Shown: one piece after another, positions 28,515 through 38,761 of the stretch
Position numbering within the stretch: the stretch's first letter is position 1
Layout: each line of letters opens with the position of its first letter
Assembly (NCBI GenBank): GCA_017503235.1
Contig: JAFVTL010000112.1
Location: forward strand, 1-43,067
Source: Bacteroidaceae bacterium
Lineage (GTDB): Bacteria; Bacteroidota; Bacteroidia; Bacteroidales; Bacteroidaceae
Reading direction: 5' to 3'
DNA: 43,067 nt
Notes under the pieces: model-generated
Seen by the model: the letters and a program-made list of their open reading frames with translations, nothing else
Databases searched by the model: none
What the model was told of the DNA's origin: nothing
Made by a program: the position numbers and the translations under genes

Positions 28515-28620
28515 GAGGAGTTAAAGGGAGATAGAGGGAGATAATCGCTTCGCTCCTTGAGGAGATAAAGGCCAATAGTCTTGTTGATGAATACAAATGT
28601 ATTGGCCTTTATCTCCTTTT
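28515..28620. repeat. Dispersed repeat copy A with a 17-bp perfect palindrome
   Basis: GGAGATAAAGGCCAATA (28561-28577) and TATTGGCCTTTATCTCC (28600-28616) are perfect reverse complements. The flank GTTAAAGGGAGATAG and the core AGTCTTGTTG are shared, in the same orientation, with copy B at 38787-38889. The stop codon of the S24/S26 peptidase gene lies in the right arm. The hairpin may also end transcription from both sides. Confidence 0.9.
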
Positions 28621-29073
28621 ATCTACTTTAACTACCTGAATTTTATAACAAAAGCGAATCAAATAGCTACGAAATACCCCTGTCCCCCTCCACAAACGAC
28701 TGGGCAACGTCCATTCCCAATTGTCAACCGACAGGACTTTCCCCGACGGGCGGTACACTTCCCTGACGATTCCCACAACATCGGCCACCTGACAACGCTC
28801 GAAAGAAGCATACACTCCATCTCCTTGAATCAACAGATTGTCTCCCTCCCGACGGAGGATGCGATGCAACACATGACTTCCACGATAACGGAAAAGCACC
28901 ACATCCATCGGTTTCAGGTCTTTTGCCTCGCAAGGGCACAACAACACTTCATCGCGTTCGTTACGCAACAACGGGAACATGGAGTTTCCCTTCAAGCGGA
29001 AGCGTACCGGCCTTCCGGCGGCTATCTCCGCCTCTACTCCTGCAAAGAACAGGTTATTTGGAATGGTCTTCAT
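28609..29073 (-). CDS. S24/S26-type peptidase, Ser-His form
   Basis: 154 aa from ATG 29073, which overlaps the kinase gene by 20 bases; the ATG at 29115 would overlap it by 62 bases and put non-conserved residues first. The catalytic Ser31 is in the motif KGNSMFPLLR. The second motif is DVVLFRYRGSHVLHRIL, where His70 stands at the place usually held by Lys in bacterial signal peptidases, as in SipW-like and eukaryotic forms. QGDGV corresponds to the GDN motif. No clear membrane anchor is seen. As last gene of the PqqD/ABC operon it is a candidate leader or signal peptidase for the operon's substrate. Confidence 0.85.
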   Translation of the reverse strand: MKTIPNNLFFAGVEAEIAAGRPVRFRLKGNSMFPLLRNERDEVLLCPCEAKDLKPMDVVLFRYRGSHVLHRILRREGDNLLIQGDGVYASFERCQVADVVGIVREVYRPSGKVLSVDNWEWTLPSRLWRGTGVFRSYLIRFCYKIQVVKVDKRR

Positions 29074-29932
29074 CGGCAAACACAGTTTGGCAGGACAAAC
29101 GGGCGGCATCTCCATCCGGCAAGCAGGCCAAATGATAACAAGGAACTTTTGAAAGAATACCGTTCAGCGTTTGGCTCACCCCATCATACAAAGTTTCGTC
29201 GTAGGCAAACTCGGGAGCACACGAAGGATGGAGGGCTCCTACCGATTGAAGGACGGAGAGCTTGCGGATTTCATTGAAAGGAGCCTGCGTCAAGCGTACA
29301 CAGCCCTTCAGTTCGTAACGCTCCGCTTTGTAACAAGGCGTCTTTCCACTCCACGGACTTCCATACGCCCACACCTTTCCGTCTTCCACCCGTATCATGG
29401 GACTGTCATCGTTCAGCAACACCGCACCGGGGATATGCTCACGCCACAAGCGGGTGTGCGTACTCTTCCCCGTACCGCTTTCGCCCAAGAACAGCACCGC
29501 CTTGTCGTTATATATAATACAACTGCTATGTAAAGCCAAGGTATCTTTCCGACAGGTCATCAATCCATAGCCCACCCACAAAGCAAAGCGAAGGAGATAA
29601 GGCTCCATGTTGCCACACAAGCTGACCACATCGGTTCCTGTCTCTGTCCACAAATAGAGGCTTTCCCTGCCTTCGGGCGACAGGACAAGCAGATACCCCT
29701 GCTCCGTAGTGCCGAACGAGCCTTTCACATCTTCATACTCCAAGGTATATTGCACCTTCGCGAAGGAAGGAGCTGTTTCGCCCGTTACAAACTCAAAGTC
29801 CGCCGCTCCGTCTTTTTCCACCAAAAAAGGACGGAATCCCGGCAATTGGTCAATCCCTTCTTTCAACGTCTCTGCAAAAGCCAAGCGATGTCCGGCTATT
29901 TCATAAAATCTATTCACGTCGTTTTCAATCAA
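29054..29932 (-). CDS. HPr kinase/PEPCK-like kinase
   Basis: 292 aa, soluble. Walker A is GESGTGKST (about residues 150-158), preceded by ALHSSCI. The following LLNDDSP (Asp175/176) and AYGSPWSGKTPCY match the C-terminal domain of HPr kinase and PEPCK-type nucleotide folds. The N-terminal 130 residues are not like HPr kinase and may bind a substrate. In kinase-bearing lasso clusters such a protein phosphorylates a Ser of the peptide. Here it overlaps the ABC gene by eight bases and the peptidase gene by 20. The substrate is unknown. Confidence 0.85.
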   Translation of the reverse strand: MIENDVNRFYEIAGHRLAFAETLKEGIDQLPGFRPFLVEKDGAADFEFVTGETAPSFAKVQYTLEYEDVKGSFGTTEQGYLLVLSPEGRESLYLWTETGTDVVSLCGNMEPYLLRFALWVGYGLMTCRKDTLALHSSCIIYNDKAVLFLGESGTGKSTHTRLWREHIPGAVLLNDDSPMIRVEDGKVWAYGSPWSGKTPCYKAERYELKGCVRLTQAPFNEIRKLSVLQSVGALHPSCAPEFAYDETLYDGVSQTLNGILSKVPCYHLACLPDGDAARLSCQTVFADEDHSK

Positions 29933-31544
29933 TGGTTATTACTCGGTCACAATACGACAAGGAACTTTCCCTGTGCGCAATGGAAAGGATGGTGAGCCCC
30001 GGAAAATCCGTCCGCAACAAAGCCAGCATGTCGTTGATGTCTTTTTCCGTGTCGTTGTCAAGCGCAGAAGTGGCCTCATCCAGCAAGATGATTTCGGCTT
30101 GCTTGTACAAGGCACGGGCAATGCCGATGCGTTGGCGTTGGCCACCGGACAACCGGCCGCCATATTCTCCCAAAGCGGTATCGATACCTTCCGGAAGTGT
30201 CTGCACCCATTCGTACAGACAAACCTGTTTCAATATCTGCATTATCTTTTCCTTGTCTATATCCTTGCATCCCAAAGCGATGTTTTCGGCCAACGAACCC
30301 TGGAAGATGAACACATCCTGTTGCACATATCCGGTCTTCCGAAGCCAGGCGGGCTGCACCTCGGAGGTCAACGGCACCCCGTCAATCCGGATTTCCCCCT
30401 GTTGGGGAGTCAGGAAGCCTAACAGAAGATTGAACAACGTGGATTTGCCCACGCCGCTACATCCCCGGAAGCCGATGTATTCCCCCTTGCGGATGCAGCA
30501 ATTGAAATCATGCAACACTTCCCCACCCTCTCCGTAGCTATAAGTCAGGTTGCAGGTTTCCAGTGCTTTTTCAAATGCGAGCGGAGTCTCTTCCTCCGGC
30601 CGAGGGTCCGCATCCTTCAATCCGTCTTCCACAATCTGCAAGGCATTGGCATTGTTCTGTATGAGTGTCCATCCCGAAAGGATGCCCTTCAAGGCCGGCA
30701 ACAGACGGAAGGCAGCCACGGCAAAGATGCCGACCAACGCCTTCACATCTCCCGTACCCAAGACCGCCAGCAGGGTAAGCCCTACAATCACCGAAAGTTC
30801 GGAAAGGAAACTCGGCAACCGCCCGATTGTCTCCATCTTCATGCGGTTGGCCGTTATCTGCTCCAGCCCCTCCTTGAAGGAATCCTTCATGGCATAGAAG
30901 GCTTCATTCACTTCGAGTTCGGCAAATCCGCCGAAGGTTTCATTCACCACTCGCGTCTGCTTCCGGCGGGCATCCAGCTCCAACTTGCCGAATTCGCGTA
31001 CATGCTTGCGGATGGCAAACAGATAAATCAGCATGAAAGGCAGGAAGGAAACAAACAATATCAGGGCGGTAAACCAATCGTACACCAACAAGGCAATCAG
31101 CACCATCCCTATCAGCAAGCCGTCGCCGGCCATCCGAAGCAACGGTGCAAGAATGTTCAAGCTGAAGGCATAACAGATGAAGTTCACCTCATAGCCGAGG
31201 CGGTTGACGCCTTGTTCGCGGATGAACAGCAAGCCCCGGCGGTAATAGGCGGTGAAGAGCGAGAAGCTCAACCGCTTGTAGAGGTCGAGCAGATAGTGCT
31301 GCTGGAAACGGGAGAACAAGGTAATCAGCACACTTTTCAGTACAATCACCCCCACGGCCAACAAGCAGAACCCGATGGCGGCACGTTGCTGTTCCCCTCC
31401 TTCGAGCAAGAGATAAAGCACCGGAAGTAGTGCGGCCAACCCGATAAAGTCGAGCAAGGCCGACAAGAAGACGGCTCCTACCACCTTCGTGCCTTTCTTC
31501 CGTTCCTCGGGGAGCAACAAGCCCCAAATGCGTCCAATCATCAT
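29925..31544 (-). CDS. ABC exporter, fused membrane and ATPase domains
   Basis: 539 aa. An N-terminal transmembrane domain (about residues 20-300, five to six helices, e.g. VVGAVFLSALLDFIGLAALL) is fused to an ATPase. Walker A is GCSGVGKST (about 361-369), the signature is LSGGQ (465-469) and Walker B is IILLDE (485-490). No C39 peptidase domain is present, so leader cleavage would need another enzyme. Its start overlaps the stop of the nucleotidyltransferase gene (ATGA). Context suggests export of a small peptide rather than a lipid. Confidence 0.93.
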   Translation of the reverse strand: MMIGRIWGLLLPEERKKGTKVVGAVFLSALLDFIGLAALLPVLYLLLEGGEQQRAAIGFCLLAVGVIVLKSVLITLFSRFQQHYLLDLYKRLSFSLFTAYYRRGLLFIREQGVNRLGYEVNFICYAFSLNILAPLLRMAGDGLLIGMVLIALLVYDWFTALILFVSFLPFMLIYLFAIRKHVREFGKLELDARRKQTRVVNETFGGFAELEVNEAFYAMKDSFKEGLEQITANRMKMETIGRLPSFLSELSVIVGLTLLAVLGTGDVKALVGIFAVAAFRLLPALKGILSGWTLIQNNANALQIVEDGLKDADPRPEEETPLAFEKALETCNLTYSYGEGGEVLHDFNCCIRKGEYIGFRGCSGVGKSTLFNLLLGFLTPQQGEIRIDGVPLTSEVQPAWLRKTGYVQQDVFIFQGSLAENIALGCKDIDKEKIMQILKQVCLYEWVQTLPEGIDTALGEYGGRLSGGQRQRIGIARALYKQAEIILLDEATSALDNDTEKDINDMLALLRTDFPGLTILSIAHRESSLSYCDRVITID

Positions 31545-32659
31545 CCTCTCATCAATATCGTTTTAGGTTTACGGATATGGACTACTATCGACTCCCATAT
31601 TCTCCGCCACAAGGAGTGGTCAAATATCATGGCTTGCATCCGATGGATGTACAACAGGCGTTTGGTCTTGTAGCGCAGGATAGCGAACACGCCCTTCACC
31701 GGCACTCCTCCATGAGGCGGATAGAGCGGATGCATCATCTGTTCGTACACGATGCTTACCATCGGTTCGCCGCCCTTCACGGGAATATCCATATCCAGCA
31801 AGCGGTTGCACAGATGGGTCAGCGCACAGATGAAGTCCAACAGGCGTTCGTCGGTCACTTCCTTGGGCAGACACCAGCCGTATTTCTTCAGCAGGAAGGC
31901 CCAGTCGAGCAGATGGTGCAAGCGGATGCCGTTGCCAAAATGCTGGGCGGCATGGAAAGTCAGAAACAAGGCATTGAACTCCGGCGAAGGGATGTGGACC
32001 TGATAGATTCCTCCACACAGCTTCACTTCACGGGGGTTCAGCAACGTGTGGAGCAGCTCGTTCATCGGAGCGGCCAGCTTGTAGCGAAACACATCGAGGA
32101 AGGTCTTGTGATTCTCGACGGGGATGCCTTTATAATAGAAGTTGCTATGCTTGGGCGAATGGTCGGTCTCCACATCGATGCCCTGCTTCTTCATCAGTTC
32201 ATCGGCCAGCCGGTTGGCTTCCTGATCACTGATGATGCTCTTTACGGCCGACCAGGTGTAGATGTCAATGTCGCCTCCTTCGCGATGGGCAGGGACGGGA
32301 TAGTAAGTCGAAAGCCCCACGCCCTTCAGTTGCACCATGGCAATGTTGTTCTGGGCATAGAAGTCCTGCAAGTCGGCCACCGTGCCGCAATAGCGTTCAT
32401 ACTTCTCTTCGTAGCTCTGCACGGCCAGTCCCCAAGTCAGTTTCAAGGCTCTGGGCGGCACGCATCCGGCATCCTGAAGGGCGATGCCATCCCATGCCAA
32501 GGCCATCACTCCGTGGGTGGAGGCCAGTTTGTAGCATTGCTGCCAGTCCTCGTCCGTACACGATTTCCAGCACACCTCGGTTCCGGCGTTGCCATGCAAG
32601 GCTGCCTTCAGCAAGGCGAAGAGCATCTTTTCCGCCGTCGTCATCGGTAAGCTATTCAT
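31541..32659 (-). CDS. Nucleotidyltransferase family protein (PF14907 type)
   Basis: 372 aa. The motif LKGVGLSTYYPVPAHREGG (about residues 111-129) continuing DIDIYT is the nucleotidyltransferase core with the metal-binding Asp pair. VENHKTFLDVFRY and FHAAQHFGNGIRLHHLLDW follow, as in the PF14907 family found beside kinase-bearing lasso clusters. It may nucleotidylate a peptide or a phosphorylated residue, but no reaction can be assigned. It begins four bases after pqqD. Confidence 0.85.
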   Translation of the reverse strand: MNSLPMTTAEKMLFALLKAALHGNAGTEVCWKSCTDEDWQQCYKLASTHGVMALAWDGIALQDAGCVPPRALKLTWGLAVQSYEEKYERYCGTVADLQDFYAQNNIAMVQLKGVGLSTYYPVPAHREGGDIDIYTWSAVKSIISDQEANRLADELMKKQGIDVETDHSPKHSNFYYKGIPVENHKTFLDVFRYKLAAPMNELLHTLLNPREVKLCGGIYQVHIPSPEFNALFLTFHAAQHFGNGIRLHHLLDWAFLLKKYGWCLPKEVTDERLLDFICALTHLCNRLLDMDIPVKGGEPMVSIVYEQMMHPLYPPHGGVPVKGVFAILRYKTKRLLYIHRMQAMIFDHSLWRRIWESIVVHIRKPKTILMRG

Positions 32660-32663
32660 GCCG

Positions 32664-32933
32664 TCATTCGATGATGATGTTACACTTCTTCAGGGCTTCA
32701 ATCCAGGCGGAGGCATCTTGTCCGGCCTGTCCTTCACCGATGCCATACACATTGGTAAGGATGTTGGCGGCATCGTCCAGTTCAAAGTCCTTGCCGGAGA
32801 GGTTTTCCCACAACAGGCGTGCCGATGCATTGAGCGAAATGATTCGGGTCAAGTCGGTTTCCGATGCGCCCTGATTCACCACGATGGTTTCTCCCGCTAT
32901 TTCGCGTAGTTTGTAATTTGTACCGATTCTCAT
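32664..32933 (-). CDS. PqqD family (RRE-like) peptide-binding protein
   Basis: 89 aa. The sequence MRIGTNYKLREIAGETIVVN, then IISLNASARLLWENLSGKDF and a C-terminal helix WIEALKKCNIII, is the PqqD winged-helix pattern. PqqD and lasso B1 proteins bind precursor leader peptides and deliver them to modifying enzymes. As the first gene of the operon, directly behind a TATCTTTG -7 box, it marks the operon as a peptide-modification system. Confidence 0.9.
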   Translation of the reverse strand: MRIGTNYKLREIAGETIVVNQGASETDLTRIISLNASARLLWENLSGKDFELDDAANILTNVYGIGEGQAGQDASAWIEALKKCNIIIE

Positions 32934-32960
32934 TCTTTTATCTATTAATTATTCGTTTTG

Positions 32961-32968
32961 CAAAGATA
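32961..32968 (-). promoter_or_regulatory. -7 box for the pqqD operon
   Basis: TATCTTTG on the minus strand, 27 bases before the pqqD ATG, matches TAnnTTTG. The five genes behind it have gaps or overlaps of 4, -4, -8 and -20 bases, so they form one transcript distinct from the lipoprotein operon. Confidence 0.65.
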
Positions 32969-33039
32969 TAATCTTTTTGAAATTCGCCACAGCGTATAAG
33001 TAGTTTTTTTCCGTGTGGATGATGGCATGCTGATTAATT

Positions 33040-33540
33040 TTTACCACTGAGTACACGGAGTTCCACAGAGTTTTTTATTTTTCATCCGCAGATTACGCCG
33101 ATGACGCAGATTCTTTATTATAGAACTCAGAGACACGGAAACACAGAGTTTATTACTTGTTCACCACAGATTACACGGAATGTATTCACCAACCTGAAAG
33201 GTTGTACTTCTTTATTAGCCGGGGGCTTTCAAGCCTCCGGTGTCGACGATTCGCACGCACGGAACAGTCTGAAAGACTGAACATTCCCATTCACGAGGTT
33301 CAGCCTTTCAGGCTGATGGGAGGAGAAAGGTCCACCTCCATTCCACGGGTTTGAAAACCCGCGGCTATTCATAGTTCAGCCTTTCAGGCTGTGCAATCTG
33401 TGATGAATCATCCCATCCGCATGGCAGATTAAAAAATCCGCGTCATCAGCGAAATCTGCGGATGAAAAATTAAAAACTCTGTGGGACTCCGTGTACTCTG
33501 TGGTGGGTCATCCCATCCGCATGGCAAATTAAAAAATCAA
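33040..33540. repeat. Gene-free repeat cluster
   Basis: The 813 bases between pqqD and the lipoprotein gene hold no supported gene. They carry several repeat types: CACGGAGTTCCACAGAGTTT strings, CATCCGCAGATTACGC and its inverse GAAATCTGCGGATG, two copies of CATCCCATCCGCATGGCA, and small palindromes with a CTTTCA core: AACCTGAAAGGTT, GGGGGCTTTCAAGCCTCC, AGCCTTTCAGGCT (twice) and CGGGTTTGAAAACCCG. Confidence 0.8.
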
Positions 33541-33692
33541 CGCATTAAGCCATCCTGACACTTTTGACAGATGTTTTTACCTAGTTTAAATTGAAGGTGC
33601 TGACCAAATTCTGTAGCAGATACATTATTAAGCATCCTGCCTCTCCCTCGGGAAACTCCCCTATAAAACAAAATGGAAGAGAGAGGGGATGA

Positions 33693-33746: not shown

Positions 33747-34772
33747 TTATGCTGGTTCGTACCATTTATCTGGAGCGATTGCTGCACCTGTAGGACCATC
33801 CATAATGATGGCAGCACCATTGGTTACTTTTTCTTTGTAGGTATCGTAAGGTCCAAATTCGCGAACATAGTAATAGGTTTCATTAGATACCGAAAATTGA
33901 ATGAAATCACTATCAGCATCTGGTTCATAACTACTATCAACAGCAGCATAGATAGAAATACCATCAGTATTAGGATGTACCCAGCAAGGTTTGTAATAAT
34001 TACCAACAGCTACTTGATTCAACTCGATGCCACTGGATGTAATAGTACCTCCTGAATAAGCTATAAGGCCTCCTACGCCGACTTCACCTCCATCGGATAA
34101 TTTACCTTCATCTTCTTCCTCGTCATCCGATAAATTCTTGATAGTGAATTGGGCTACTTGTGGCACCATCATAATGTTTAGTGCCAATACATAGCCATCC
34201 TCTTCATTTCCTGAAATCTCGAAGGAACCATCCTCGCAAGTCATAATACATTCGCCTTTACCTTCTCCTACTGCATTCGACACAATCCTGAGAGTTTCCG
34301 GAACATTACCAAGTAGTGTCACATCCTGTTCCGGGATAGACGCTCTTGTTGCCGGTGTGGAGTCTCCGTTTTCGGGATATACTTCGCCAGAAGATAAATA
34401 GATGGCTTTCAGGTTACCATTATCTCCTAATTCAGTTTTTAGGTTTCCTATGAATTCGGACACTTTATAATCATATATTGCGTCAAATTCCTCACCATCG
34501 TATATATAATAGGAGGCTTGCCATTCTCTTGAATAACCTTCATAGTACAAATGAACAAAAGCACCAAAGTAATTGTTAAGCACTACTACCACCTCTTCAT
34601 CACCTTCCCAACCTTGGCGAGGAGCGCGAGTATCTTCGCCAAAGCCCGGCTTATCCATATTTACCACTACCTTAACGGCCTTCTTTTCGCTCACTTGGAT
34701 AGCATCCTCTTCCTGGCTGCATCCGGTAAAGGCAAGCACAAGGGCTGCCAATGCAAAAAATATCTTTTTCAT
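33747..34772 (-). CDS. Fimbrillin-like lipoprotein
   Basis: 341 aa from ATG 34772, chosen because MKKIFFALAALVLAFTGC is a typical lipoprotein signal with lipobox FTGC; the in-frame start 42 bases upstream would run into the 46-aa gene. After the Cys come EDTRAPRQGWEGDEEVVVVL, with the TRA...W..GD pattern seen in Bacteroidetes fimbrillin-like (Mfa-like) proteins, and many beta strands. An acidic patch, DDEEEDEG, is in the middle. It is likely outer-membrane anchored and surface exposed. It follows the 46-aa gene by 32 bases and is probably cotranscribed with it. Assignment to fimbrillins is by pattern and not certain. Confidence 0.75.
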   Translation of the reverse strand: MKKIFFALAALVLAFTGCSQEEDAIQVSEKKAVKVVVNMDKPGFGEDTRAPRQGWEGDEEVVVVLNNYFGAFVHLYYEGYSREWQASYYIYDGEEFDAIYDYKVSEFIGNLKTELGDNGNLKAIYLSSGEVYPENGDSTPATRASIPEQDVTLLGNVPETLRIVSNAVGEGKGECIMTCEDGSFEISGNEEDGYVLALNIMMVPQVAQFTIKNLSDDEEEDEGKLSDGGEVGVGGLIAYSGGTITSSGIELNQVAVGNYYKPCWVHPNTDGISIYAAVDSSYEPDADSDFIQFSVSNETYYYVREFGPYDTYKEKVTNGAAIIMDGPTGAAIAPDKWYEPA

Positions 34773-34804: not shown

Positions 34805-34945
34805 TTAGCCCCAATTTTGTTCTCCATCATCACCACCAAAAGGCGTGAATGCCGGTACACCGGATACGGCAAATCCCTTTTCCACTTCCACTTCGATGAC
34901 CTCTACCAGAGGCGCTTCGTAATTCAAAATTTCATTTCTGTTCAT
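34805..34945 (-). CDS. 46-aa peptide with YxxP leader-like N-terminus
   Basis: The frame from ATG 34945 to TAA encodes MNRNEILNYEAPLVEVIEVE, VEKGFAVSG, then a Gly/Asp/Phe-rich tail VPAFTPFGGDDGEQNWG. There is no signal peptide. NYEAPLVEV fits the Y-x-x-P-x-(hydrophobic) motif that lasso-type B1 (PqqD-like) proteins read in leader peptides. The change from a charged, helical first half to a small, aromatic and Gly-rich second half resembles leader plus core. Similar short YxxP proteins are common near Bacteroidetes fimbrillin-like genes. Role as a modified peptide is an inference. Confidence 0.7.
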   Translation of the reverse strand: MNRNEILNYEAPLVEVIEVEVEKGFAVSGVPAFTPFGGDDGEQNWG

Positions 34946-36457: not shown

Positions 36458-36525
36458 CAAAGGTACGGGGGAAGGACACAAAGTGACCATGCAAAATCGA
36501 GCCAAAATCATGCAGAATGAGGCAA
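36458..36525 (-). promoter_or_regulatory. Promoter with paired 17-bp direct repeats, 437-aa gene
   Basis: A TACCTTTG -7 box (36465-36458) is preceded, 22 bases upstream, by two direct repeats on the minus strand: TGGCTCGATTTTGCATG (36504-36488) and TTGCCTCATTCTGCATG (36525-36509), exactly 21 bp apart. The same layout occurs at 37017-37083. Confidence 0.8.
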
Positions 36526-36640
36526 ATTCCAGCTATGGTCGGTGTTTTCGTCAAGCGTAGTGGGTGTTTCCGTCAGTCGCGTCGGAAGAATCAGCAGCTA
36601 TTTCCTGCCCGACCAGCGCAGGCCTCTCCTGCTTGGAGGA

Positions 36641-36707
36641 ACGGCCGTTCTTGGTCGGAGGAACGGCCGCACCTGGTCGGAGGAGCGGCCGCACCTGGTA
36701 ACCAGGA
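36641..36707. repeat. 22-bp GC-rich tandem repeat, three units
   Basis: Units start ACGGCCGTTC, ACGGCCGCAC and GCGGCCGCAC and each carries a TTGGTCGGAGGA or CTGGT..CAGGA tail. The composition is much richer in G+C than the surroundings. An open frame across it (36517-36786, plus) looks fortuitous. Confidence 0.85.
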
Positions 36708-36731
36708 AAGGCCTGCGCCGGTAGCCAAAAA

Positions 36732-36760
36732 AGGCTTGCACCAGTTACCCAGGCAAGCCT
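36732..36760 (-). terminator. Intrinsic terminator for the 69-aa gene
   Basis: On the minus strand AGGCTTGC pairs with GCAAGCCT around a 13-base loop and is followed by six T residues (36732-36727). It lies 28 bases past the stop at 36788. Confidence 0.85.
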
Positions 36761-36787
36761 TTCCTCATAAGATTAAAACAATATAGA

Positions 36788-37090: not shown

Positions 37091-38761
37091 CTAAACTGTC
37101 CGCCCATCCATTCCCTCACGATACTGGGTAGGAGATTTTCCGAACATCCGCCGGAAGGATCGGGAAAAACTGGTAGCATCCTCAAATCCGCACTGCATGG
37201 CCAGTTCGGAGATGGACACTTCCTTCTGTCCTTCGAGGACGAGGCGTGCCTGTTCCATACGGATGCGCTGCACATACTGCTGGGTAGTGATGCCGGTAAT
37301 GGATTTCACCTTGCGGTTGAGATTGCTCCTTGAGACACACATGTCCGAAGCCAAGGTTTCGACAGAGAAATTGCCCTGCGGCATCCGCCTGATGACGAGA
37401 GTGACAATCTTGTTCAAGAATTCCTTATCCGAACGGGACAACAGTTTTTCTTCTTGTAAATCAGCGACCGCTTCTTCCTTGACATCTTCCGCATGACCGG
37501 CCGCATCCCTCAGCTGACGAATGATGGTATTCAACGCCGCCTCACGCAGCTTCATCCGACGATGCATATATATCCACACCAATACAGCCAGGAGCAGCAT
37601 GCCACCAATGCCACAAAGAATGGAAATCCGAGTACGGACACGCTGAATCTCGTTTTCCTGTTGCAACCAATCCGAACCGAACTCGGCATTGTAGCGTGCC
37701 AGACTCTCTGCGGTTGCCTGGTTGTAAAGTGTATCCTTCAGGTCGTTGAAACGATCCAGCTCCATCTTGGCACTATCGGGATACTGGCTCCAAAAGCTTT
37801 CATAAAGTCCTTTGCGTGCATGCATTTCGTTATGCTTGTCTCCCATCCGCACAAACAGGTCGGCCGCTTCGCGATAATAGGGAATCGCTTCCAACGGCCT
37901 TTCTTGAGAGAGCAACGCCATGCCCATCTTGTTGCAGGCTATGCCCAACGACTGGACATTCTGCGTCTGACGGAAATACGGAATGACTTCTGACAGAACC
38001 TGCTCGGCGTCCGCATAGTCGTGATGACCGATAAGTACGGAAGCCTTCTGTGCCAGGCGCACCATCAGGCGGTCGGTGCTTCCCAACTTCCTTTCCACCT
38101 CGCACGCCTGGTCAATGTATTGAATGGCTTTCTCATCATCTCCCTGTGCATGATACACTTCGGAAGCCATGCCCAACAATACAGCCATACGTGCAGGGTT
38201 TTCGGCTTTATGAGCCATCTCAAGACCTTTCAGAATGTATTTCTCGGCTTCGTAGGGTTGGTTTGCTCCGATATAGATGCCGGCAATCGTATTGAGGGAA
38301 GAGCTCATGAGGTCGGGGTCGCCGCTTTGTTCATCTATCCGATAACAACGCTTGGCATACTCGGCGGCCGCCTCGTATTGAGTCGTCCGGAAATAGCCGA
38401 GTGCCAGCAGATTCAGACAATTGGCTTCAACATCCGTTCCCTCGCACAAAGGAAGCGCCAGTTCTCCATATTGCAAAGCATCGTGATAGTTGCCGGAGGC
38501 ATAATAGTGCTCGGCCGTCCAATACCATACTTGTTGGCAGAGAGTATCGGGATGTGTCCGGTCATCAAAGCAAAGAAGTCCATCGGTCAATTCCTCCTGA
38601 TGATAGGTTTCCATCAACCGATTGGCGGCTTGAAGGCGTTCCTGTCCTTCACCCGTCTTGAACCGGCTCAACAAGGCCGCCACTTCTTTTCCCTCGGATG
38701 CCGCCACTTGAGAGACGGCTATAAGGCACCACACCAGTGCCGAAAGCATTCGTTTCATCAT
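37091..38761 (-). CDS. Membrane-spanning TPR sensor with AraC-type DNA-binding domain
   Basis: 556 aa. A signal peptide or first anchor (MMKRMLSALVWCLIAVSQVA) is followed by about 330 residues of TPR repeats (e.g. YHDALQYGELALPLCEGTDV, CLNLLALGYFRTTQYEAAAE), a membrane helix (about residues 379-399, CGIGGMLLLAVLVWIYMH), a short helical linker, and a C-terminal AraC HTH (about 455-550, with DMCVSRSNLNRKVKSITGI and AMQCGFEDATSFSRSFRRMF). The TPR part is therefore periplasmic and the DNA-binding part cytoplasmic, a one-component system. It is transcribed from a promoter at 39035-39066 with a long 5' leader. The likely targets are the two repeat-bearing promoters just downstream. Confidence 0.9.
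   Translation of the reverse strand: MMKRMLSALVWCLIAVSQVAASEGKEVAALLSRFKTGEGQERLQAANRLMETYHQEELTDGLLCFDDRTHPDTLCQQVWYWTAEHYYASGNYHDALQYGELALPLCEGTDVEANCLNLLALGYFRTTQYEAAAEYAKRCYRIDEQSGDPDLMSSSLNTIAGIYIGANQPYEAEKYILKGLEMAHKAENPARMAVLLGMASEVYHAQGDDEKAIQYIDQACEVERKLGSTDRLMVRLAQKASVLIGHHDYADAEQVLSEVIPYFRQTQNVQSLGIACNKMGMALLSQERPLEAIPYYREAADLFVRMGDKHNEMHARKGLYESFWSQYPDSAKMELDRFNDLKDTLYNQATAESLARYNAEFGSDWLQQENEIQRVRTRISILCGIGGMLLLAVLVWIYMHRRMKLREAALNTIIRQLRDAAGHAEDVKEEAVADLQEEKLLSRSDKEFLNKIVTLVIRRMPQGNFSVETLASDMCVSRSNLNRKVKSITGITTQQYVQRIRMEQARLVLEGQKEVSISELAMQCGFEDATSFSRSFRRMFGKSPTQYREGMDGRTV

Follow-up and report, generated by a model that had tools for sequence, protein, structure and literature searches.

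What does a peptide-tailoring operon make when no cyclase lies beside it? The question is raised by five adjoining genes in a 43,067-nucleotide stretch of DNA from a Bacteroidaceae bacterium (contig JAFVTL010000112.1 of assembly GCA_017503235.1; this whole stretch is called the window below). An initial annotation had read these genes as a tailoring and export set for a ribosomally synthesized and post-translationally modified peptide (RiPP), of a type that it did not recognize as described. This gene set has been reported in Bacillota, as that of the Linear Polyphosphorylated Peptides (LPP), which comprises a RiPP recognition element (RRE), an HprK-like kinase, a SipW-type peptidase, a nucleotidyltransferase and an MsbA-like exporter (PMC13381572, Nat Commun, May 2026). 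The five genes of the window very probably form a Bacteroidales branch of these cyclase-free, kinase-bearing RiPP systems, and we describe candidate precursor peptides for them.

The operon and its candidate precursors

The minus strand carries all five open reading frames (ORFs) at 28609..32968, where they are read in order from the PqqD gene to the peptidase gene. The PqqD and nucleotidyltransferase genes are separated by a 4-nucleotide gap, and the next three junctions are overlaps of 4, 8 and 62 nucleotides, which bears out the original description of adjoining or overlapping genes. An 8-nucleotide element, TATCTTTG (32961..32968, minus strand), lies 27 nucleotides upstream of the PqqD start; we call it promoter-like on the assumption that the consensus is TAnnTTTG.

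The first gene (32664..32933) encodes a PqqD-fold RRE that resembles LppB and the B1 proteins of lasso peptide clusters (PF05402, E 2.1e-10). Searching the PDB with this single sequence gave one match, which was irrelevant, but a profile of the family matched TfuB1 (6jx3, E 1.2e-8), TbiB1 (5v1u, 3.1e-5), PbaB1 (9x90, 2.9e-4) and LppB (9x8z, 0.0019). N35 and D73 are the sole invariant residues in a 23-member alignment of the RRE, and in a profile alignment with chain B of 9x8z they pair with LppB N33 and D70 (LppB numbering counted from PMC13381572). In LppB, N33 fixes a kink at the Pro of the YxxP leader motif and D70 hydrogen-bonds its Tyr, among other contacts (PMC13381572).

The second gene (31541..32659) encodes an LppN-like nucleotidyltransferase (PF14907, E 5.8e-41), and the third (29925..31544) an MsbA-like ABC exporter of the LppD kind, in which permease and ATPase are fused. 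The exporter matched PF00005 at E 1.8e-32; PF00664 fell under its cut-off, as did all displayed NCBIfam matches of the MsbA/PglK type, and the family scan listed no C39 family for it.

The fourth gene (29054..29932, with a TTG start as called) encodes an HprK-like, LppK-like kinase with a Walker A motif, GESGTGKST, and an NDD motif. Taken alone, this protein has a P-loop and only weak family matches. Membership in TIGR04352 (NCBIfam HprK-related kinase A) was considered and rejected, the likeness being a weak match across the P-loop region that scored 20.7 bits where the cut-off is 200. Eight residues, H135, S152, G153, G155, K156, T158, D175 and D176, are invariant in 28 aligned kinase sequences, and the family profile matched PEPCK (E 1.5e-5) and HPr kinase (0.0036) in the PDB.

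The last gene (28609..29115) encodes a predicted leader peptidase of the SipW/Sec11 type (S26), similar to LppS, with a weak match to signal peptidase I and an inner ATG (MKTIPN) that may be the true start. By itself it had no Pfam match at E 0.1, and its family profile matched the Ser-His signal peptidase SEC11A (7p2p) at E 1.1e-8. S45, H84 and D99 are invariant in 22 aligned sequences; the Ser-His spacing of 39 equals that between S29 and H68 of LppS, and D99 may correspond to LppS D93.

Short ORFs with the pattern K/R-x-Y-x-x-P occur near the kinase gene in several relatives, some of them directly beside it. A first motif scan of the window yielded no convincing peptide, because its pattern demanded a Lys or Arg a few residues before the Tyr. 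A profile was then built from 12 peptides chosen by eye, all from genomes other than that of the window. In the window's genome this profile found seven peptides at E 8.3e-7 to 5.2e-5; an eighth match, at E 0.86, lay inside a 329-codon frame. The seven are encoded by ORFs of 35 to 46 residues, one within the window and six elsewhere in the genome, and have no family in Pfam or NCBIfam. The candidate precursor in the window (34805..34945, minus strand; E 2.1e-5 in the whole-genome search) has 46 residues, with the leader YEAPLVEVIEVEVEKGFA followed by VSGVPAFTPFGGDDGEQNWG. The initial annotation was right about the five-gene locus but overlooked this gene and a lipoprotein gene, both just upstream.

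The seven peptides share 17 invariant columns, including the start Met, and have the common leader YxxPxVEVIEVEVEKGFAxS, followed by variable tails. In 36 pairwise comparisons of these seven and two Phocaeicola peptides, 5 to 12 of the 20 leader codons differed silently and 0 to 4 differed by amino acid. The protein sequence of the leader is therefore under selection. At E <= 0.001, a PqqD search of the window's genome, which is 83.7% complete, gave one match, so a single RRE appears to serve all seven precursors. When 50 distinct peptides were typed, with identical ones counted once, 32 fell into type A (GFAxS or LLxGS), among them the seven, and 18 into type B (ISLIMMT-like), one of which, L109, was assigned by eye. 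A Trp lies close to the end of the core in 21 of the 32 type-A peptides, and the cores are mostly acidic.

The LPP system has been studied in Paenibacillus alginolyticus lpp (PMC13381572). There, the RRE grips YxxP, the kinase adds phosphates to Ser3 of the core, and the SipW-like peptidase and the RRE together remove the leader (PMC13381572). Experiments on these Bacillota counterparts lend support to the earlier proposals that the S24/S26 enzyme is the leader peptidase and the kinase a tailoring enzyme. In the Bacteroidales system, the PqqD-type RRE would grip the YxxP leader of the small precursors, and the HprK-like kinase, by homology to LPP, would phosphorylate the Ser that closely follows the leader (GFA-x-S). 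In systems that have the nucleotidyltransferase, this enzyme may decorate the phosphate or the peptide and so extend the modification. The Sec11/SipW-type Ser-His peptidase, helped by the RRE, would then remove the leader, cutting after GFA or GFAx, and the MsbA-like pump would export the linear, mostly acidic core. A single enzyme set would act on the seven scattered precursors of the window's own genome.

Conservation of the gene set in Bacteroidales

To see how widely the module occurs, we looked across 393 genomes of the window's order, the Bacteroidales. The single kinase sequence had a match in 82 of them at E <= 0.001. A kinase profile matched 81 at E <= 1e-10 and 58 at E <= 3.3e-35; only the last group was taken as kinase-positive, the 23 weaker genomes being counted as negative. 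Outside the order the kinase was rare, being found in 4 genomes, besides the window's own, among 345 (E <= 1e-30).

Gene neighborhoods were compared in two sets of loci, which may overlap in species: the regions around 40 kinase matches of the 393-genome sample, and the best 80 of 263 confirmed loci in named records. The 40-locus set had supplied training sequences for the peptidase, RRE, nucleotidyltransferase and exporter profiles, so the counts there arise partly by construction and the 80-locus set comes closer to a test. When only genes on the kinase strand and no more than 6 kb away were counted, a peptidase gene was found at 35/40 and 70/80 loci, an RRE gene at 31/40 and 50/80, an exporter gene at 28/40 and 52/80, and all five genes together at 8/40 and 10/80. 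Whether the genes stay together in other genomes had been proposed as a check on the original reading, and by these counts the set is largely kept together. Its order and content varied, with 21 arrangements in the 40-locus set and 18 in the 80-locus set, which argues for functional linkage rather than the inheritance of one arrangement. The module was found in Phocaeicola, Bacteroides, Alistipes, Prevotella and Paraprevotella records. When contigs were scanned with the nucleotidyltransferase, no relative was confirmed. At two loci (L060 and L061, in genomes G211 and G357), the module has the same neighbors: genes that by eye are biotin-carrier- and carboxyltransferase-like, and two proteins that look secreted.

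The presence of the candidate precursors goes with that of the kinase. A broader profile, made from 17 peptides that included six of the window's genome, matched 43 of the 393 genomes at E <= 0.01, namely, 36 of the 58 kinase-positive genomes and 7 of the 335 others. With the 13 training genomes removed, the peptide was present in 23/45 kinase-positive genomes versus 7/335 (Fisher p 1.3e-18, by a test that ignores phylogeny). The peptide and kinase matches lay 51 to 340 nucleotides apart in six non-training genomes (G279, G263, G170, G047, G162 and G143). The 13 peptide matches in the 40-locus set were mostly training peptides, so that only the 80-locus set tests the profile; there, 15 peptides scored E <= 0.05, of which 10 reached <= 1e-3, versus 0 in shuffled ORFs.

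No cyclase, radical SAM, YcaO or lanthionine gene was found among the 28 window ORFs scanned with Pfam, a selection that leaves out other ORFs, including neighbors that we take to be IlvB-, IlvD- and FKBP-like, and the end beyond 41.5 kb. PF13471, the B2 protease family, had no match in the window's genome or in 49 of the 58 kinase-positive genomes. It matched the remaining nine (seven above the cut-off) and was never beside the module kinase: eight of these genomes have the two on different contigs, and in the ninth they are about 369 kb apart. Most of the genomes are drafts, in which a contig break could hide some cases. No cyclase was recognized by eye among the recurring neighbors of the 80 loci, no genome-wide PF00733 search having been made, and, judged by reading their sequences, the recurring neighbors beyond the five core genes resemble housekeeping synteny. 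The absences first noted in the window (cyclase, B2, radical SAM, YcaO and lanthionine genes) hold for the 28 scanned ORFs. The initial annotation had also asked whether the set always comes with an enzyme of a known RiPP class; no B2 gene adjoins the module kinase in these 58 mostly draft genomes, and the picture of a RiPP-type tailoring and export set with neither cyclase nor B2 beside it is supported. G170 (contig C283) and G263 (contig C277) each have, about 2 kb from a PF13471 protein, another and weaker match to an HprK-like kinase. Both genomes also contain the cyclase-free module, and these additional loci are probably lasso clusters.

Lipoprotein neighbors and the role of the peptides

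What might the product do? Immediately downstream of each of the seven own-genome peptide genes lies a gene whose product has a lipoprotein signal. In the window this gene (33747..34772, minus strand) starts 32 nucleotides past the peptide gene and encodes a predicted surface lipoprotein, a candidate partner, with the lipobox LAFTGC. Its N terminus weakly resembles the Mfa1 family (fim_Mfa1_fam, E 7.1e-5, 22.2 bits against a cut-off of 130), and no Pfam family exceeded its cut-off. Across all type-A peptides, 29 of 32 precede a lipoprotein gene (28 recognized by one lipoprotein pattern, plus the neighbor of L086 by another, which alone finds 25); L037 precedes a kinase gene, and L057 and L117 have no called gene. 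Nine of the 18 type-B peptides precede a kinase gene, one (L111) a lipoprotein gene and two other genes, and six have nothing called within 300 nucleotides. Fimbrillin-like, BspA-LRR and GLUG proteins occur among the lipoprotein neighbors.

Phocaeicola massiliensis and P. faecalis have the order seen in the window: peptide, lipoprotein, PqqD, nucleotidyltransferase, ABC exporter, kinase, peptidase. P. sartorii has it too, with the lipoprotein and exporter frames each in two pieces. At this last locus (L126:3870-6859), the two lipoprotein frames overlap and the kinase may also be split, which could reflect an assembly error or decay. In the window, the interval between the lipoprotein and PqqD genes (33000-33560) contains short direct and inverted repeats noted by eye, for example, copies of 'cctttcaggctg' and 'ccgtgtactctgtgg'. 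An Arg/Pro-rich, repeat-like ORF at 36517-36786, near an AraC-TPR regulator gene (37091-38761, minus strand), is probably no gene.

Since a predicted surface lipoprotein is encoded immediately downstream of each precursor in the window's genome, the product probably works in concert with these neighbors at the cell surface, as far as gene order can suggest. A broader picture, which we put forward only tentatively, is that of a widespread, hitherto unrecognized phosphopeptide RiPP class of gut and rumen Bacteroidales, in which one trans-acting set serves a repertoire of peptides, every one of them encoded with a surface lipoprotein of its own, and each modified peptide is the dedicated partner, ligand or prosthetic peptide of an adhesin-like surface protein.

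We regard it as rather unlikely that the genes form a machine for lipoprotein maturation or surface display, with the peptide as a phosphorylated tag attached to, or coassembled with, the neighboring lipoprotein. The pairing at 7/7 own-genome and 29/32 type-A peptides is what such a machine would predict, and some of the partners have fimbrillin-like, BspA-LRR or GLUG domains. However, no enzyme for covalent attachment was seen, half of the type-B peptides precede a kinase gene without a lipoprotein, and adjacency alone shows no physical link.

A good deal less probable is the view that the YxxP peptides are not substrates, that their ORFs serve the lipoprotein genes through regulation or translational coupling, and that the five genes act on something else. 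The spacing would suit such ORFs: in 28 of 29 type-A pairs the peptide ORF ends within about 75 nucleotides of the called lipoprotein start, with some overlaps, and in the other pair the distance is 184 nucleotides. Against this, the type-B peptides, which belong to the same profile, directly precede a kinase gene nine times in 18 and a lipoprotein gene only once. Selection also acts on the amino acid sequence of the leader, whose Tyr and Pro correspond to the ligand known for the RRE, and the presence of the peptides tracks that of the kinase.

Least probable of all is a degenerate or split lasso system with a cyclase and B2 elsewhere in the genome and a phosphorylated lasso peptide as its product: lasso B1 proteins are the best matches of the RRE profile, the leader carries YxxP, the kinase and nucleotidyltransferase are lasso partners, and G170 and G263 carry those second kinase matches near B2-type proteins, but PF13471 is unmatched in the window's genome (as far as that incomplete assembly goes) and in 49/58 kinase-positive genomes and never lies beside the module kinase, no cyclase-like protein was seen by eye among the recurring neighbors of the 80 loci (again with no genome-wide PF00733 search), and the leader peptidase of the module belongs to another fold class.

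Comparison with LPP and other known systems

We return to the reading of the five genes as relatives of LPP. The window and LPP have in common the same five functions, the lack of a cyclase of their own, a YxxP leader soon followed by a Ser, and the two RRE residues that contact the Tyr and Pro. Of the features that define LPP clusters (PMC13381572), the window has a predicted SpI-like (SipW/Sec11-type) leader peptidase, to judge from the SEC11A match and the invariant S45, H84 and D99; a discrete RRE (PF05402, LppB 9x8z, N35/D73); and an HprK-like kinase, a nucleoside triphosphate transferase and an MsbA-like transporter in the cluster. It also lacks a macrolactam cyclase, on the evidence of the 28 window ORFs, the neighbors inspected by eye and B2, with no genome-wide PF00733 search. 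The detailed LPP leader motif, YxxPxVLxHQxIxFETxxS (PMC13381572), is not found: the peptides of the window's genome keep YxxP and the later Ser, and the rest is replaced by VEVIEVEVEKGFA. For this reason the set is classed as an LPP-like variant rather than LPP proper. The Bacteroidales precursors are scattered and paired with lipoprotein genes, whereas those of LPP lie in capsule loci of Bacillota, and the nucleotidyltransferase is often absent near Bacteroidales kinases, unlike in the LPP set.

Paeninodin-like lasso clusters (B1, B2, C, K, N, D) have the RRE, kinase, nucleotidyltransferase, ABC exporter and YxxP/WxxP leader logic in common with the module, as the initial annotation had noted for the partners of kinase-bearing lasso clusters. 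A B1-type RRE with a Y/WxxP leader, a hallmark of lasso loci, is thus present as judged by sequence, and the other hallmark, a B2 protease with a macrolactam synthetase (C) in the locus, was not found (for the cyclase, among window ORFs and neighbors by eye). These clusters differ in that B2 is absent beside the Bacteroidales module, where no cyclase was recognized and the leader peptidase is of the Ser-His S26 type.

A similar arrangement is found on plasmid pNP243 of Butyrivibrio fibrisolvens D1 (NZ_CP146964.1), where genes for a kinase, a 57-residue YVKP peptide, PqqD and an S24/S26 peptidase stand in a row, with nucleotidyltransferase and ABC genes nearby. The Bacteroidales profiles scored 156.6 bits for the kinase, 100.4 for the peptidase and 73.5 for the RRE, and in pairwise alignments with the window's proteins the kinase matched at 35% over 159 residues and the peptidase at 25% over 113. 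The peptide profile matched only the first nine residues of the plasmid's peptide, at 6.4 bits. The plasmid differs in belonging to the Bacillota, in the Cys-rich core and in the polysaccharide genes that adjoin; in its peptidase, the conserved His-Arg is His-Ser and Gly-Asp is Gly-Glu, so that the Arg and Asp invariant in the Bacteroidales set are missing. The peptide itself (L204:9621-9794), annotated as hypothetical and lying between the kinase and PqqD genes, is likely a clostridial precursor of the same type.

Several observations weigh against reading the Bacteroidales set as a branch of the LPP-like systems. The nucleotidyltransferase is missing from most loci, with 13/40 and 14/80 having it on the kinase strand no more than 6 kb away, and at 5/80 loci the kinase has none of its four partners. 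No peptide matched at E 0.01 in 22 of the 58 kinase-positive genomes, and none was found within the stretch examined at 65 of the 80 loci; conversely, seven peptide-positive genomes have no strong kinase, and the disregard of phylogeny in the Fisher test also counts here. The HQxIxFET part of the LPP leader is missing from the Bacteroidales leader. The RREs of the window and Butyrivibrio gave no pairwise alignment, though the RRE profile matches the Butyrivibrio PqqD. Finally, TfuB1, TbiB1 and PbaB1 all outscore LppB with the RRE profile, which therefore does not establish descent from within LPP.

The discussion of the LPP paper describes LPP and paeninodins as restricted to Bacillota, and its results describe the peptidase cluster as coming from 'predominantly' Bacillota genomes; no word starting with 'bacteroid' occurs in its main text (PMC13381572). 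No description of a Bacteroidota version was found among the open-licence papers listed, including PMC10352776, PMC8939145 and PMC7533575, which is not proof of its absence. The kinase is nonetheless present in 58 of 393 genomes of the window's order, though the sole description found limits such systems to Bacillota. New relative to LPP is a Bacteroidales branch with likely precursors, and these candidates supply exact substrates for testing. The role of LPPs is stated as unknown (PMC13381572); a first clue to what such systems do comes from the pairing of the candidate precursors with predicted surface lipoproteins. One enzyme set for seven scattered precursors would, moreover, be unlike the described lpp clusters.

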